64,000 nt of DNA from an uncultured Ectothiorhodospiraceae bacterium (GTDB lineage Bacteria > Pseudomonadota > Gammaproteobacteria > Nitrococcales > Nitrococcaceae): assembly GCA_913056385.1 (NCBI GenBank), contig CAJXND010000001.1, positions 1 to 64,000 of the forward strand. Direction: 5' to 3'. A program made the position numbers and the translations under genes. Below the pieces are notes generated by a model, which worked only from the letters and a program-made list of their open reading frames with translations, was not told where the DNA came from and ran no database searches. This document shows positions 42,021 to 50,743 of the stretch, piece by piece. How positions within the stretch are numbered: position 1 is the stretch's first letter; each line of letters starts with the position of its first letter.

Positions 42021-42502
42021 TGGCGGCTTTCCGCGCGCGTCAGGTGGCCCGGATCCGGGACGCCGTGGCCGCCGGGCGGCAGGCGGTCCGGGAGGCGGGC
42101 CAGGCCGATCCGGTGGTATTCGCCCGCGCCTTCGTGGCGGCCGGTGGGGCACAGATACCGGGCGATCGACAGGGCGAGGCCGGCCAGGCCCTCGGCGTGC
42201 GGCTGCTCGAGGCCGTTGCCAGGGGGCGAGGCGCGGCGCCTGAAGACCCCGATCTGGACCGCGAACTGCGCCGGGCATCCACGGAGGCCCGGTGGGCCAT
42301 GGCGCTGGAGGATGACCGGATCGTTGGCTTCCTGATCGACCTCCCCGAATCGGCCCTGGAGACCCCCACCGTGGAGGCCCTCGCCCATCAAAGCCAGGGG
42401 CTGGGACCGGGTGTTTTCCGCAAGGCCGAGATCCTGGTGCTCCAGCCCGAGTGCGATGGCGCATGCTTCATTCCGGTGACCGAACACGATATCGAGTGCT
42501 GA
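42020..42502 (+). CDS. Hypothetical protein coupled to TerB-like gene
   Basis: A 160-residue protein starting at GTG 42020, one base inside the TerB-like stop. I recognise no domain. The N-terminal half is Ala/Arg/Gly-rich and helical (about 1-95); the C-terminal half has FLIDLPESALETPTVEALAHQS and GVFRKAEILVLQPECDGACFIPVTEHDIEC in pieces, with three cysteines clustered in the last 20 residues. No signal peptide or membrane segment. Composition matches neighbours, so it is probably a real, lineage-specific gene. Confidence 0.65.
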   Translation: MAAFRARQVARIRDAVAAGRQAVREAGQADPVVFARAFVAAGGAQIPGDRQGEAGQALGVRLLEAVARGRGAAPEDPDLDRELRRASTEARWAMALEDDRIVGFLIDLPESALETPTVEALAHQSQGLGPGVFRKAEILVLQPECDGACFIPVTEHDIEC

Positions 42503-42515
42503 ATTTTCCCGGCGG

Positions 42516-42543
42516 TTGACTTGGGTTCTGCTTGGGGTACGCT
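42516..42543 (+). promoter_or_regulatory. nrdJ promoter
   Basis: TTGACT (42516-42521) and TACGCT (42538-42543) are 16 bases apart, a plausible sigma-70 promoter about 120 bases before nrdJ. Transcription would begin near 42550, just before the first NrdR box. Confidence 0.55.
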
Positions 42544-42553
42544 AGACGCTGTT

Positions 42554-42569
42554 ACACAATATGTAGTGG
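42554..42569 (+). promoter_or_regulatory. NrdR box 1
   Basis: ACACAATATGTAGTGG matches the NrdR consensus acaCwAtATaTwGtgt at 14 of 16 positions. It lies just downstream of the predicted transcription start of the ribonucleotide reductase operon and 31 bases from box 2 (start to start), the standard spacing of NrdR box pairs. Confidence 0.8.
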
Positions 42570-42584
42570 CCCGGGGGTCCAAGG

Positions 42585-42600
42585 CCGATACATATTGTGG
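42585..42600 (+). promoter_or_regulatory. NrdR box 2
   Basis: CCGATACATATTGTGG matches the NrdR consensus at 11 of 16 positions, with the core ATATTGTG intact. Its start is 31 bases after that of box 1, three helical turns, so both boxes face the same side. The end overlaps a DnaA box. Confidence 0.7.
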
Positions 42601-42604
42601 ATAA
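42596..42604 (-). promoter_or_regulatory. Perfect DnaA box in the nrdJ leader
   Basis: TGTGGATAA on the plus strand is the exact complement of the DnaA box TTATCCACA. It overlaps the last five bases of NrdR box 2. In E. coli the nrdAB promoter is also bound by DnaA and NrdR, so replication-coupled control of this class II enzyme is plausible. Confidence 0.6.
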
Positions 42605-42666
42605 CCGCCAGCAACACCCTGCTGTCGCGGTTTCGGCCATGAACCGATCAGCGCAAGGAGAACCCG

Positions 42667-44823
42667 ATGACGACCGCAACGAAACTGCGTGCGCTACCCA
42701 AGACCGTTACCGAGATCCCGATCCAGCCCGCCTCGGAGGATATCTGGGACAAGAAGTACCGGCTCAAGTCCAAGGAAGGGGAGGTGATTGACGAGACCGT
42801 CGACGATACCTACAAGCGGGTCGCCCGTGCCCTGGCCGAGGTGGAGCCCGAGTCGCGCCAGGAATACTGGTACGAGCAGTTTCTCTGGGCCCTGCGCCGC
42901 GGGGCCATACCCGCCGGCCGCATCACCTCCAACGCCGGTGCCTGGGAGCACAAGCCCGCCACCTCCACGATCAACTGCACGGTCTCGTCCACCATTGGCG
43001 ATTCCATGGACGACATCCTGGACAAGGTCCATGAGGCGGGCCTGACGCTCAAGGCCGGCTGCGGCATTGGTTACGAGTTCTCGACCCTGCGTCCCAAGGG
43101 TGCCTATGTCTCCGGTGCCGGTGCCTACACCTCGGGGCCGCTGTCGTTCATGGATATCTACGACAAGATGTGCTTTACGGTGTCCTCGGCCGGCGGCCGG
43201 CGCGGTGCGCAGATGGCCACCTTTGATGTCGGCCATCCGGACGTCATGGACTTCATCCGTGCCAAACGCGAGGACGGCCGGCTGCGTCAGTTCAACCTCT
43301 CGCTGCTGATCACCGATGGCTTCATGCAGGCCGTGGAGCAGGGCAAGGACTGGCCGCTGGCCTTCCCCATGAAGGCCGACGAGGCCGAGAGCGAAGGCGT
43401 CGATGTCAACGATCCGGAGCAGGTCCTCTGGCGTGAGTGGCCGAACCGAAAAAGCGGCTACCTGACCCGCGAGGATGGCCTGGTCGCCTGCCGGATCTAC
43501 CGCTGGGTGAAGGCCCAGCGGATCTGGGACATGATCATGACCTCCACGTACGACTATGCGGAGCCGGGGTTCGTGCTCATTGACCGGGTCAACGAGATGA
43601 ACAACAACTGGTTCTGCGAGGAGATCCGCGCCACGAACCCCTGCGGCGAGCAGCCCTTGCCACCCTACGGCGCCTGCCTGCTGGGATCGGTCAACCTGAC
43701 CAAGTTCGTGCGGGAGCCGTTCACCGACCGGGCGCACTTCGACTGGGAGGAATACCGTCGTGTCGTGGCCCTGTTCACCCGCATGCTCGACAACGTGGTC
43801 GAGATCAACGGCCTGCCGTTGGATCGTCAGCGCGAGGAAATCCAGCGCAAGCGCCGCCATGGCATGGGCTTCCTCGGCCTCGGGTCCACCGTGACCATGC
43901 TGCGCATGAAGTATGGCGACGCGGAGTCGCTGGCCTTTACCGAGCAGGTGGCCCGGGAGATGGCCGTCGAGGGCTGGCGTGAGGCTCTTCGGCTCGCCGA
44001 CGAGAAGGGGCCGGCTCCGATCATGGAGGAGGATTTCGCGTTGACCGAGCGTATGCTGGCCTGGCGGCCGGCGCTGCGCGAGGACGGCTACAAGGTCGGC
44101 GACAAGGTCAAGGGCCGGGTGCTCTGGGGGCGCTACAGCCGCTACATGCAGCGCGTTGCCGAGGTCGAGCCTGAACTGGTGGACCAGCTGGTCGAGAAGG
44201 GGGCGCGGTTCACCCATCACACCTCCATTGCGCCCACCGGGACCATCAGCCTGTCACTGGCCAACAATGCCTCCAACGGGATCGAGCCTAGCTTTGCGCA
44301 TCACTATTTCCGTAACGTGATCCGCGAGGGGAAGAAGTCGAAAGAGAAGGTGGACGTCTTCAGCTTCGAGCTGCTGGCCTATCGGACGCTCATCGATGAT
44401 GGCGCGCTGCCCAGCACCGATCCGGAAACCCGCAATCTGCCGGACTACTTCATCGCTGCCGATGACGTCACGCCCAAGCAGCACGTCGATATCCAGTCGG
44501 CGGCGCAGAAGTGGGTCGACTCCAGCATTTCCAAGACGGCCAATGTGCCGACGGAATACCCCTACGATGAATTCAAGGACATCTATCGCTATGCCTACCA
44601 GAACGGGCTGAAGGGTTGCACGACCTTCCGGTTCAACCCGGAGGCCTTCCAGGGCGTGCTGGTCAAGGAGTCCGACCTGGAAAACACCACTTACCGGTTC
44701 AAGCTCGAGGATGGCCGCACCGTCGAGGTGAAAGGCGGCGACGACGTCGAGTACGACGGTGAAGTGCATACCGCCGCCAATCTCTATGACGCCCTCAAGG
44801 AAGGGTATTACGGGAAGTTCTGA
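42667..44823 (+). CDS. nrdJ: Adenosylcobalamin-dependent ribonucleotide reductase, catalytic subunit (class II)
   Basis: Makes deoxyribonucleotides using a B12-generated thiyl radical, in air or without it. The 718-residue product has STINCTVSSTI (redox Cys), the GRRGAQMATFDVGHPDVMDF region, NPCGEQPLPPYGACLLGSVNL (NPCGE holds the thiyl-radical Cys) and SIAPTGTISL. SD AAGGAG precedes ATG 42667. The C-terminal cysteine tail of single-chain NrdJ is missing here and is supplied by the next gene, as in the split NrdJa/NrdJb of Pseudomonas aeruginosa. Two NrdR boxes lie upstream. No cobalamin riboswitch is seen in the 164-base leader. Confidence 0.93.
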   Translation: MTTATKLRALPKTVTEIPIQPASEDIWDKKYRLKSKEGEVIDETVDDTYKRVARALAEVEPESRQEYWYEQFLWALRRGAIPAGRITSNAGAWEHKPATSTINCTVSSTIGDSMDDILDKVHEAGLTLKAGCGIGYEFSTLRPKGAYVSGAGAYTSGPLSFMDIYDKMCFTVSSAGGRRGAQMATFDVGHPDVMDFIRAKREDGRLRQFNLSLLITDGFMQAVEQGKDWPLAFPMKADEAESEGVDVNDPEQVLWREWPNRKSGYLTREDGLVACRIYRWVKAQRIWDMIMTSTYDYAEPGFVLIDRVNEMNNNWFCEEIRATNPCGEQPLPPYGACLLGSVNLTKFVREPFTDRAHFDWEEYRRVVALFTRMLDNVVEINGLPLDRQREEIQRKRRHGMGFLGLGSTVTMLRMKYGDAESLAFTEQVAREMAVEGWREALRLADEKGPAPIMEEDFALTERMLAWRPALREDGYKVGDKVKGRVLWGRYSRYMQRVAEVEPELVDQLVEKGARFTHHTSIAPTGTISLSLANNASNGIEPSFAHHYFRNVIREGKKSKEKVDVFSFELLAYRTLIDDGALPSTDPETRNLPDYFIAADDVTPKQHVDIQSAAQKWVDSSISKTANVPTEYPYDEFKDIYRYAYQNGLKGCTTFRFNPEAFQGVLVKESDLENTTYRFKLEDGRTVEVKGGDDVEYDGEVHTAANLYDALKEGYYGKF

Positions 44824-44834
44824 GGACAGTCGCC

Positions 44835-45560
44835 ATGGCCGTGAAAATCGACAGCAAGATCATTGACTATGAGGTCGCCCGGGCCGAGGCGGAGGCGAAG
44901 GCGGGGGAGTCCGCCGAGGGTACCTCCGAGGCCGCAACCGAGAGTGCCGCCATCGAGCACATGCACGAGGAGCTCCAGCGCCCGGAGCGCCTCGAGGGTC
45001 AGACGTACAAGATCAAGACGCCGCTCTCCGAGCATGCCCTCTATGTCACCGTCAATGACGTGATCCTCAACGAGGGGACGGAGCATGAAATCCGGCGTCC
45101 GTTCGAGGTGTTCATCAACTCCAAGAACATGGATCACTTCCAGTGGATTGTCGCCCTGACGCGGATCGTCTCGGCGGTTTTCCGCAAGGGCGGCGACTGC
45201 ACGTTCCTTGTCGAGGAGTTGCGCAGCGTCTTCGATCCGCGTGGCGGGTACTTCAAGAAGGGCGGCAGGTTCATGCCCTCCCTGGTGGCCGAGATCGGCG
45301 ATGTGCTGGAGCAGCATCTCCGCTCCATCGGCATGATGGAGGCCGAGGGACTCGATGAGCATCAGCGACGGTTCATTGAGCAGAAGAAGGCCGAGGCGGA
45401 GGGGCATGCCGCGCAGGAGCCCATTGAGGCCGACTGCGATGACAGCACCGGGGATTATCCGCCGGGCGCAGAGCTCTGCGGGAAGTGCCATACCAAGGCC
45501 ATGATCATCATGGACGGTTGTCTGACCTGTCTGAACTGCGGCGAGAGCAAATGCGGCTGA
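44835..45560 (+). CDS. Class II ribonucleotide reductase accessory subunit (NrdJb-like, TSCPD domain)
   Basis: Second chain of the split class II reductase. The 241-residue product has an acidic N-terminal tail (about 1-40), a TSCPD-type domain (YVTVNDVILNEGTEHEIRRPFEVFINSKN in segments, then WIVALTRIVSAVFRKGGD) and a C-terminal zinc/redox tail with CGKCHTKAM and CLTCLNCGESKCG (C-terminal seven-cysteine cluster), which would reduce the active-site disulfide. It lies 11 bases after nrdJ with SD GAGGA. Matches P. aeruginosa NrdJb in layout. Confidence 0.88.
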   Translation: MAVKIDSKIIDYEVARAEAEAKAGESAEGTSEAATESAAIEHMHEELQRPERLEGQTYKIKTPLSEHALYVTVNDVILNEGTEHEIRRPFEVFINSKNMDHFQWIVALTRIVSAVFRKGGDCTFLVEELRSVFDPRGGYFKKGGRFMPSLVAEIGDVLEQHLRSIGMMEAEGLDEHQRRFIEQKKAEAEGHAAQEPIEADCDDSTGDYPPGAELCGKCHTKAMIIMDGCLTCLNCGESKCG

Positions 45561-48364: not shown

Positions 48365-49138
48365 TTAATCCGGCCGCGGGCCGCCCATGACCTCATCGAG
48401 GCGCTCGCCCCTCGGCAGGCCCCGCGCCAGGCGAATGGCGCCGTCCGCATCGCGGTAGAACACCGATGGCGTACCGCGGATGCCGAGCTCGCTCATCAAC
48501 TGGTTATTCGACTGAACGGTCTGCTGGGCCTCGGCCGGGAGTCGATCGGCGGGCATGATGCCACCGTTGTCGAAGTTCGCCTCGTGCTCGTCAAGTGCCG
48601 CCGGCGGGTCCTCCGCCGCCAGCAGGGTGGCCGCCTTGGGTAGGCTGTCCTGACGGAGTACGCCCACCATGACATGGCGGATCTGTACGTCGCCGGCCTC
48701 TACCCAGTCGCGGGTCTGCTCGTGGAATCGATGGCAGAACGGGCAATTGGGGTCGGTAAAGGCATAGACGACACGGTCGGCATCATCACTGCCGTCGGCG
48801 ATCCAGCCCGCCTCGGAGACCGCCTGCCACTCGCTCTCCGGTCGGGCGTCATTCGCCGCGGCGGAGAGCACCGGCTGGGAGAGGTTGGTGCCGTCGCCAT
48901 CGAGAAGGGTGCCGACCACCACATGGTCACCGTCGGCGGTAAGATAGGCCGCCAGGGTCTGTCCCTGGAAACTGACGGTATAGCCCGTCAACCCGGAGGG
49001 CGCATCGAAGGACTCGCCGATGGTCGCCCCCCGATCCTCGAGGGCGGCGATGGGGGCTGGAAGGCCTTCGGTCTCATCCTGCGCGGTGGCGGTGCCGCCG
49101 ACCAGCAGGGATAGGGCGATGAGGATCAGTCGGGTCAT
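48365..49138 (-). CDS. dsbG: Thiol:disulfide interchange protein DsbG-like
   Basis: Periplasmic DsbC/DsbG-family protein that protects or isomerises cysteines. The 257-residue product has a signal peptide (MTRLILIALSLLVGGTATAQ), a short dimerisation domain (about 22-100), then a thioredoxin fold with FTDPNCPFCHRFH (CPFC active site, about residue 133) and the cis-Pro loop IRGTPSVFY. Single-substrate protection from sulfenylation is DsbG's known job. dsbB is encoded in the same window at 57528. Confidence 0.87.
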   Translation of the reverse strand: MTRLILIALSLLVGGTATAQDETEGLPAPIAALEDRGATIGESFDAPSGLTGYTVSFQGQTLAAYLTADGDHVVVGTLLDGDGTNLSQPVLSAAANDARPESEWQAVSEAGWIADGSDDADRVVYAFTDPNCPFCHRFHEQTRDWVEAGDVQIRHVMVGVLRQDSLPKAATLLAAEDPPAALDEHEANFDNGGIMPADRLPAEAQQTVQSNNQLMSELGIRGTPSVFYRDADGAIRLARGLPRGERLDEVMGGPRPD

Positions 49139-49248
49139 GCCTGCATTGCCTCTGTTCGTGTAAGTGGTTCCTGCACGACGGTATCAGCCGTCGAGATCCG
49201 TTGGAGCCGGAACGAGCCGGTAAGTTCGCTGTAGCAACCACTGTGGAT

Positions 49249-49287
49249 AAAAAAAGCCCCCGGTCCGCATGAGCGGAATCGGGGGCC
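49249..49287 (-). terminator. Strong Rho-independent terminator of the HiPIP gene
   Basis: Read on the minus strand, GCCCCCG (49280-49286) pairs with CGGGGGC (49256-49262) and an inner TCCGC/GCGGA stem extends it; a run of six to seven T follows. It lies 22 bases past the HiPIP stop. Confidence 0.88.
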
Positions 49288-49308: not shown

Positions 49309-49644
49309 TCAGCTGGTGGCGACCCAGGCGCTGCACCAGCCGTCGACGTTGACCAGTTTGCCCGGGAAGGCGGTGCATCCGCCCCATTCCGCATCGGAAT
49401 CGCCAAGGTAGAGGCGACAGTTACCGCAGATGGCACCCGGCTCGCGCATGTCGTCCTTTTCCGCCGCGTCGTGGACGTAGTTCAGGGCGATGGCCGTGGG
49501 ATCGTCCTCCGAGAGCTTCGGCATGTCCTGGGCGAGCGCATTCGAGCCCCGGACGCTCATGTAGGCAAGCGGCGCGGCGGCCACGCCCATGAGGGCGCCC
49601 CGGAGGAGGCGACGACGGTCGTTGCTGAAATTATTGTCGGTCAT
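49309..49644 (-). CDS. hip: High-potential iron-sulfur protein (HiPIP), Tat-exported
   Basis: Small periplasmic electron carrier with a [4Fe-4S](3+/2+) cluster, typical of phototrophic and halophilic Chromatiales. ATG 49644 gives 111 residues: a Tat signal (NDRRRLLRGALMG, cut near ALAQ39) and a mature domain with four cluster cysteines C73, C76, C90 and C104 (spacing x2, x13, x13) and aromatic residues near the C-terminus. It is monocistronic, with its own terminator. An FNR-like box lies at 49753-49766, 109 bases upstream. Acidic mature protein. Confidence 0.95.
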   Translation of the reverse strand: MTDNNFSNDRRRLLRGALMGVAAAPLAYMSVRGSNALAQDMPKLSEDDPTAIALNYVHDAAEKDDMREPGAICGNCRLYLGDSDAEWGGCTAFPGKLVNVDGWCSAWVATS

Positions 49645-49752
49645 GGTCTTCCCCTTGGATTGTGGAAAGGAAAATCTGTTTGCAACTGTTCTAATCTCTG
49701 AACGCAGGGTACCGGTCGTCGGGCAATGGGAAAAGGCGATCTCCCTGAGAAC

Positions 49753-49766
49753 TTGATCTGACGCAA
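49753..49766 (-). promoter_or_regulatory. FNR-like box upstream of HiPIP
   Basis: On the plus strand TTGAT-CTGA-CGCAA: one half-site is perfect for the FNR consensus TTGAT-N4-ATCAA and the other matches at three of five positions. It is in the 139-base gap upstream of the HiPIP gene, at a distance (109 bases to the start codon) close to that of the FNR-like box before the SQR gene (114 bases). Confidence 0.45.
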
Positions 49767-49783
49767 TTCCCTGCCGGCCTTGT

Positions 49784-50743
49784 TCAGCCCTCGGCGACGC
49801 AGATCTGTCCGCGGCCCGCGGCACGACCGGTGAGCACGATCAGCCAGGCGATGAGCGCCGTGGTGGCGGCCGTCAGGATGCCTCCCAGCCAGAGCGTCCA
49901 GGGCGTACCCGTGAGCTCGTGATAGATCATCATGGCGACCGTCATGGCGGCCAGCGGGAATGAATAGGCCCAGAATGACAGGGCGAAGTCGAGGGCGGCG
50001 AAGCGCCGGGCCTGGGTGACCAGCAGGACCGTCAGGAACAGCGCGATGTTGACCAGGATCCTGCCGAAGGTATCGAGCTCGCCGACCAGTGCCATGTAGG
50101 CGATGAATCCCGCGGCCGGGGGCGCGATCAGAATGAAAAGCGTTGGCAGCAGCCGTCCCGGCAGCGGGTCATGGAAGATGACCCGGTAGAAGACGATGGT
50201 GAGCAGGATCACCCAGAAGACGACACCGATACTGAAAAAGAACCAGGAGATCGACGGATACCCGTGTGCCATACCGGCGATGGGCACGAGGATGTTGCCC
50301 ACCGCCGGGATGAACCAGGCGGGATTCATGTGTACGACTTGAAAGTGGCCGTCATGCATCCAGCGATTGATGATGAAGATGGTCAGCACCAGCTGCAGTG
50401 CGGTGCCCAGTGCCCATAGCCAGAGCGACAGCACGGGCATGAGATGCCGCAGGGCGGTGCCGATCAGTATCAGGCTGATACTGATGGTCGGAAAGAAGCT
50501 GAGCTTGACCGGATGGTCCAGCTCGGCCCTGACCGCGGCCGGGTGGCGCACCGCCTTGACGAGATAGGCGATCAGCAGCACGCCGAACACGGCGCTCACC
50601 AGGAACACCAGGCTCTGGCCGATCACCGCCGGCGTTCCGAGGACCTCGCCGGCCTTCTGCCAGACCAGCGTCAACCCCGACAAGCCCATCACCATGGCGA
50701 AAAAGGCGATGGGCATGTTCTGCAGCCGTGTTGGGTCGCTCAT
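49784..50743 (-). CDS. SLAC1/TDT-family anion transporter
   Basis: A 319-residue membrane protein with about ten helices of the tellurite-resistance/dicarboxylate transporter (TehA, Ssu1, SLAC1) family. Features include MPIAFFAMVMGLSGLTLVWQKAG at the N-terminus, LWLWALGTALQLVLT, NPAWFIPAVGNILVP and LIAPPAAGFIAY, matching the family's pore-lining pattern with Phe/Pro residues. Fungal Ssu1 exports sulfite and SLAC1 passes anions. It is 7 bases after the small membrane protein and in line with SQR, so transport of a sulfur oxyanion is a reasonable but unproven guess. Confidence 0.83.
   Translation of the reverse strand: MSDPTRLQNMPIAFFAMVMGLSGLTLVWQKAGEVLGTPAVIGQSLVFLVSAVFGVLLIAYLVKAVRHPAAVRAELDHPVKLSFFPTISISLILIGTALRHLMPVLSLWLWALGTALQLVLTIFIINRWMHDGHFQVVHMNPAWFIPAVGNILVPIAGMAHGYPSISWFFFSIGVVFWVILLTIVFYRVIFHDPLPGRLLPTLFILIAPPAAGFIAYMALVGELDTFGRILVNIALFLTVLLVTQARRFAALDFALSFWAYSFPLAAMTVAMMIYHELTGTPWTLWLGGILTAATTALIAWLIVLTGRAAGRGQICVAEG

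Follow-up and report, generated by a model that had tools for sequence, protein, structure and literature searches.

The leader of nrdJ, which encodes an adenosylcobalamin-dependent class II ribonucleotide reductase, is probably a dual control region for NrdR and DnaA, with DnaA lowering nrdJ transcription. This reading is drawn from the pattern of predicted sites. The gene lies in the window, the whole stretch of 64,000 nucleotides that was analysed. The class II promoter has a predicted DnaA site across five families of one order, and nine class I nrdA regions of that order are without it. In this bacterium as well, the pattern suggests, DNA-precursor supply may be linked to replication initiation; in E. 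coli, DnaA is known to control a reductase, the class I nrdAB.

The genome of the window (G000) comprises 1.95 Mb in 86 contigs and is 98.8% complete. The nrdJ gene (42667-44823, plus strand) encodes an NrdJa protein of 718 aa, which matches TIGR02504 with 570.2 bits (cut-off 399.95); the B12-dependent class II enzyme named by the sequence-only reading is confirmed. In a Pfam search PF02867 and PF00317 were the sole matches of this protein, and no ATP-cone was matched. The following frame (44835-45560, plus strand, 241 aa) encodes an NrdJb-like C-terminal half with a TSCPD domain (PF12637). It corresponds to the C-terminal part of NF006417 and scores under the cut-off of this model. NrdJ is the only reductase detected in G000, because it is the sole large-subunit match and neither a class I small subunit (PF00268) nor a class III enzyme (NRDD) was found in the genome. 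The nrdR gene is located at C3:18368-18805 (TIGR00244, 202.4 bits, cut-off 124.65). The DnaA protein of G000 carries GGRDHTTVLHACRK, which we take to be the canonical DNA-binding signature of DnaA, and an IHF-alpha gene is present. The window NrdJ matches in one piece, unlike the proteins of six relatives (G014, G019, G015, G026, G029, G032). These match in two to three pieces, all within a single long open frame (1110-1545 aa), a pattern expected for inteins.

The putative promoter comprises a -35 element TTGACT (42516-42521, plus strand) and, after a 16-bp spacer, a -10 element TACGCT (42538-42543, plus strand), both read directly. By eye, 11/13 same-genus leaders have TTGACT ahead of the NrdR box, and TATGAT occupies the -10 place in some relatives. 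The assignment leans on these similar words, as a sigma-70 consensus scan called no promoter here at its threshold. NrdR box 1, ACACAATATGTAGTGG (42554-42569, plus strand), lies directly downstream of the putative -10 element and agrees in 14/16 positions with ACACWATATMTWGTGT, which we took as the NrdR consensus for scoring. A 15-bp linker (42570-42584) separates it from box 2, CCGATACATATTGTGG (42585-42600, plus strand), which starts 31 bp after box 1 and scores 11/16. An NrdR pair 31 bases apart, with the textbook spacing, had been placed at 42554-42604 by the sequence-only reading; coordinates and spacing are right. Its statement that both boxes match the consensus holds for box 1 and not for box 2, where it is generous because only the right half is good and the left half is weak. 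The occurrence of box 2 at spacings of 30-33 has a p of ~0.003 (Markov control, 400 draws). The pair is the only one of its kind in the 64-kb window (one box at least 13, the other at least 10, spacing 30-32 bp). With two boxes about three helical turns apart (15-bp linker) at a reductase promoter, and nrdR in the genome, nrdJ has the features of an NrdR regulon member.

The exact DnaA box TTATCCACA (42596-42604, minus strand) overlaps NrdR box 2 by 5 bp (42596-42600), in agreement with the perfect, overlapping box described before. It ends 62 bp upstream of the nrdJ start codon. AAGGAG (42655-42660, plus strand, read directly) is the likely ribosome-binding site of nrdJ. If transcription starts near 42550, the NrdR and DnaA sites would extend from about +5 to about +55. 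Neither a riboswitch nor another known RNA reached the gathering score in the window. A further NrdR-like word of 13/16 at 42484, 70 bp from box 1, falls within the last part of the upstream reading frame and was taken as coding. An inverted repeat, AACCGC ... GCGGTT (42603-42632), shares its first two bases with the end of the DnaA box. The repeat is also present in the G009, G001, G012 and G013 leaders (by eye) and is a possible leader hairpin.

The 9-mer by itself is weak evidence, since TTATCCACA has 7 copies in the 1.95 Mb of the genome against 4 of the reversed control; conservation decides. The DnaA word is commoner than its control in 14/14 genomes of the genus. A search of 54 order genomes gave an nrdJ match in 50. 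The leader was defined as the last 200 nt before nrdJ, and the expectation for the exact box was obtained from first-order Markov copies. The resulting set of 47 rows represents 46 genomes, with two loci of G037; G033, G044, G047 and G051 are outside it, and L072 was too short. The exact DnaA box is present in 22/47 leaders from 12/17 genera and five families (0.0565 expected), these counts coming from leaders related by descent and not being independent events. Allowing up to one mismatch, 28/47 leaders (15/17 genera) have a box at the homologous place. The exact boxes of the order lie 45-76 bp before the start codon. When one leader per genus is aligned on the box, the remaining flanks carry little information (mean 0.17 bits, near random). 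The information of the box columns (1.76 bits) was dropped as evidence, the rows having been picked for that box. No box occupies the homologous place in the genera g2 (4 leaders) and g12 (8 leaders, plus G044). Outside the 47-row set, G033 has an exact box. G044 shows no word within one mismatch in the 801 bases fetched, and G047, whose match is a distant homologue, shows none in 701 bases. The match of G051 begins at a contig edge. The DnaA box of the nrdJ leaders is not chance; the conservation in relatives proposed as a check by the sequence-only reading has thus been observed, and a chance match is disfavoured.

Outside the order, the exact box was found in 0/22 sampled nrdJ leaders (within 200 nt). 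Among 80 titled loci, 16 have the box in the same orientation within 200 nt and one (L158) has it reversed; an exact box at 200-300 nt occurs in L091, L154 and L156. Twelve of the 16 are order genomes. The remaining four, L083 (titled Halothiobacillus), L090 and L145 (Alcanivorax) and L138 (Thiohalobacter, 184 nt upstream), are not traced to the order, so that the box is not strictly confined to it. None of 25 loci titled Pseudomonas, Halopseudomonas or Atopomonas has an exact box within 300 nt, and NrdR-like boxes are seen in these Pseudomonas-type leaders too. A tie between the DnaA box and nrdJ as sole reductase was considered and not seen, exact boxes occurring both with and without class I.

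The DnaA box (INDEPENDENCE from NrdR) is no by-product of box 2. The place of box 2 scores 5-6/16 in G016, G024, G025 and G045, and TGTGGATAA is intact there; the NrdR partner in these leaders is an upstream box 0 (10 or 11/16). The usual distance of the DnaA box to box 1 is 42-44 bp. It is 54-55 bp in six f2 leaders (G049, G023, G041, G035, G026, G037), in which the DnaA box sits ~12 bp past the TTGTGG of box 2 (TAGTGG in G037), and 54 and 52 bp in G024 and G025, respectively. The shifted distances of 52-55 bp amount to about a helical turn more. In G029, another f2 leader, the distance is 43 bp and the box has one mismatch. The TTGTGG half site overlaps the DnaA box likewise in g3, g5, g6, g13 and g14. 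The overlap cannot be the conserved purpose, because the DnaA box is kept where box 2 has decayed or where the box has moved. The earlier statement that the two proteins would compete through the overlap may apply to the window, where the overlap exists. It does not extend to the overlap as a conserved feature, as the DnaA box stays both where box 2 is lost and at 52-55 bp from box 1; moreover, 6/13 same-genus leaders are without the box and the window has a single one.

In most genera, weaker DnaA-like boxes form a tandem array that terminates in the exact box, a feature absent from the sequence-only reading. Counted with one leader per genus, weak words of the same orientation (at least 6/9) pile up at -11 (8/15), -12 (3) and -23 (8), and the other 58 of 61 scanned offsets have counts of at most 2. 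A second box at -11/-12 was detected in 11/15 genus representatives (0.50 expected) and a third box at -22/-23 in 10/15 (0.48 expected). Both together, with the third at -22 to -24, are present in 8/15 (0.03 expected). The -22/-23 word lies between the two NrdR boxes where the DnaA box is 42-43 bp from box 1. The -11 word overlies the left half of box 2. It has ATA in common with the NrdR consensus, so the -11 signal is partly non-independent and the shuffle expectation somewhat low. The array spacers equal the 2-3 bp given as preferred by E. coli DnaA in passages of one study (PMC11317965).

A second feature missed before is a downstream core, YAANNNNTTGA, which begins at +15 from the DnaA box. 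The term IHF-like is used here as a label for this core, not as a result; what we take to be the IHF consensus fits it except for the outer one or two bases (leaders compared by eye). The counts of array and core come from the very leaders that first drew attention to them. The composite of DnaA box and core (at most one mismatch) has 19 matches in the 54 order genomes and 0 for the reversed control. Sixteen of the 19, from 12 genera, are at nrdJ, which holds by construction because these leaders supplied the pattern; what tests it is how rarely the composite occurs elsewhere. Across 369 genomes of the class, the exact composite has 3 matches, one of them at nrdJ (G024), and the reversed control has 1. 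The three order composites away from nrdJ are G001:C1:1559-1584, G037:C2:578664-578689 and G050:C48:11995-12020. An exact DnaA box at 1442, near the first of these, may lie in the dnaA-dnaN region. L090, the MAG titled Alcanivorax, has a one-mismatch IHF-like core at the spacing of the order beside its exact DnaA box. This MAG may be misnamed, or the promoter may have been transferred.

The window shows a reduced form. The neighbours of its DnaA box at -12, -11, +11 and +12 reach at most 3/9, so that no double box of the E. coli type is seen. Its best DnaA-like 9-mer at -22 to -24, in the linker of the NrdR boxes, reaches 4/9. The IHF-like core beside the box has 0 matches in G000 at up to one mismatch. 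The composite is absent from the nrdJ leaders of the genus, whose one match is the G001:C1:1559 composite elsewhere. Array words at 6/9 are present in some same-genus leaders, namely G006 at -11, G002 at -22 and G009 at -24. The genus comprises 14 genomes and yields 13 leaders, as the gene start of G004 was not found. The exact box is present in 7/13 of them, including G006 with its diverged flanks, and absent from 6/13; the box is therefore dispensable. From the missing core, the missing array and the 7/13 retention it follows that the window has a reduced form, either functional or decaying. The DnaA box appears somewhat likelier to be functional in the genome of the window than to be idle. 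In E. coli, according to passages of PMC11317965, 13/32 exact DnaA boxes lie in DnaA-bound regions in vivo, and single boxes are often unbound.

An NrdJ tree of 22 rows, including 11 of the 13 same-genus leaders, requires 5 changes of the box label, and shuffles average 4.6 (the one-mismatch box of G031 was scored as absent). The leaders without the box are not clustered on this tree, which gives no clear sign for or against a single loss within the genus. Box 2 scores in the genus are 11, 9, 10, 10, 10, 9 and 11 with the exact box and 10, 12, 10, 11, 13 and 10 without it. This is a hint of a trade-off between the two sites, too small to use. Loss of IHF as the cause of the core loss in the genus is not supported, IHF-alpha, the subunit searched for, being present in G000.

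The comparison with class I covers nine order genomes that have it (G014, G015, G016, G020, G023, G025, G027, G030, G031), recognized by an NrdA-like match beside an NrdB match. Each stretch spans ~2 kb, from upstream of the nrdA match into it. All nine nrdA upstream regions lack the relaxed DnaA word TTWTNCACA, and NrdR-like pairs 31-32 bp apart are present in 7/9. Among the nrdJ leaders of the same nine genomes, 5 have an exact box, 2 a one-mismatch box at the homologous place and 2 none. Four order stretches around nrdB (L206-L209), which possibly are without a promoter, contain no DnaA-like word. Outside the order, only G062 of L200-L202 has TTATCCACA upstream of nrdA. In this locus (L201), TTATCCACA and TTTTACACA lie at 587 and 608, upstream of an NrdR-like pair of the class I nrdA. 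The nrdJ leader of G062 has no exact box within 200 nt.

The DnaA box of E. coli nrdAB lies upstream of the promoter. The window DnaA box differs in lying downstream of NrdR box 1 and in overlapping box 2. Unlike the class Ia nrdAB, the gene here is a class II nrdJ, and its relatives have the IHF-like core. The elements oriC, DARS2 and datA are DnaA-IHF elements with head-to-tail sites. In the relatives, the nrdJ leaders appear similar to these elements, with an IHF-like core and, next to it, DnaA-like sites arranged head-to-tail at spacings of 2-3 bp. They differ in their position in an nrdJ leader, in being short and in having one strong box, and the window has neither array nor core. Passages of PMC12176259 describe for E. 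coli nrdAB, like here, an NrdR pair with a 15-bp linker in the downstream promoter region, and a weak outer box 0, which also occurs in some nrdJ leaders of the order. The exact DnaA box of E. coli nrdAB has a partner 3 bp away, gTTATCCACAaagTTATGCACTt, in the portion of PMC11317965 that covers it; the window has a single box. Pseudomonas aeruginosa nrdJ is likewise class II with two NrdR boxes, and its box 1 overlaps the -10 element, as stated in passages of PMC4409342. The main text of PMC4409342 has 0 occurrences of DnaA. A DnaA site at a class II reductase gene was not reported among the openly licensed matches listed, as judged from titles and abstract starts; one may be mentioned in subscription journals or in the NrdR survey by Rodionov and Gelfand (2005), which PMC4409342 cites.

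In the preferred reading, NrdR, the dATP sensor, would bind boxes 1 and 2 directly downstream of the promoter and repress nrdJ at high dATP. DnaA, bound to the exact box where the NrdR site ends downstream, would act as repressor or roadblock for nrdJ. Where the sites overlap, as in the window, DnaA would also keep NrdR off box 2. In most genera the exact box would anchor a short head-to-tail DnaA array, with weak boxes 11-12 and 22-23 bp upstream, beside the IHF-like site; the window would have retained the anchor box alone. The sign of the DnaA effect is the lowering one in passages of the review PMC11853086, in which high DnaA-ATP represses nrdAB in E. coli. DnaA is given as activator of nrdA in parts of PMC4009431 and PMC11317965.

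DnaA could also act as an anti-repressor: at high levels of active DnaA it would drive NrdR off box 2 and thereby raise nrdJ transcription around initiation. This fits the window, where the DnaA box overlaps the weaker NrdR box by 5 bp, and the same overlap of the TTGTGG half site in five further genera, and NrdR requires two boxes in the right phase (passages of PMC12051234). This is nevertheless unlikely, as the box is kept without overlap in the six f2 leaders with the ~12-bp shift and where the NrdR pair consists of box 0 and box 1. Within the genus of the window, the box might be the decaying and now idle remnant of an ancestral DnaA-IHF element, with NrdR alone controlling nrdJ. The nrdJ leaders of the genus are without the IHF-like core and have a weak or lost array, the leaders without the exact box (6/13) are unclustered on the NrdJ tree with 11 of the 13, and the frequent lack of binding at single exact boxes in E. 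coli (passages of PMC11317965) points the same way. The exact 9-mer is kept in seven leaders, G006 with its diverged flanks among them, and decay to an idle relic is doubtful.

Two readings would leave little or no DnaA control of nrdJ. The conserved element may be a DnaA titration or nucleotide-exchange site of the datA/DARS type, which lies incidentally in the nrdJ leader and has little effect on the gene. Its tandem DnaA-like boxes beside an IHF-like core recall datA and DARS2, which use DnaA and IHF (abstract of PMC13036160). An incidental position agrees poorly with the 16 of 19 order composites at nrdJ and with exact boxes 45-76 bp before the start codon, which makes this reading very improbable. 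The 9-mer as a chance match or by-product of the TTGTGG of NrdR box 2, and no DnaA site, is the least credible and already close to refuted. Five bases are indeed common with box 2, and genome-wide the 7 matches face 4 of the control. The box is, however, kept without box 2 and moved away from it, it occurs in 22/47 leaders against 0.06 expected, and it is absent from all 25 Pseudomonas-type leaders although NrdR-like boxes are seen there.

A wider form of the preferred dual control can be advanced tentatively for the order of Spiribacter, Aquisalimonas and Alkalilimnicola. The NrdR operator of its nrdJ leaders might be overlaid by a DnaA array that is head-to-tail as in oriC and accompanied by an IHF site, and the DnaA oligomer and the dATP-loaded NrdR tetramer would be mutually exclusive. 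The result would be one switch for the class II enzyme in which dNTP level and initiation state are weighed against each other. It would not depend on class I nrdAB, also in genomes with both enzymes, and the window would show its reduced single-box form. Passages of PMC11853086 raise the question of dNTP supply and replication initiation for Hda-deficient species. The site pattern at the class II gene makes this question, beyond enteric bacteria, testable in cultured members. The leaders offer a natural series from the array with IHF-like core to the single box and to no box.

The window contains a second exact DnaA box at 49242-49250, directly adjoining a GC-rich inverted repeat. No box was found in G009 at a distance from nrdJ matching this one. 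The second box lies between a HiPIP gene (49309-49824, minus strand) and a DsbC-like thioredoxin gene (48365-49138, minus strand).
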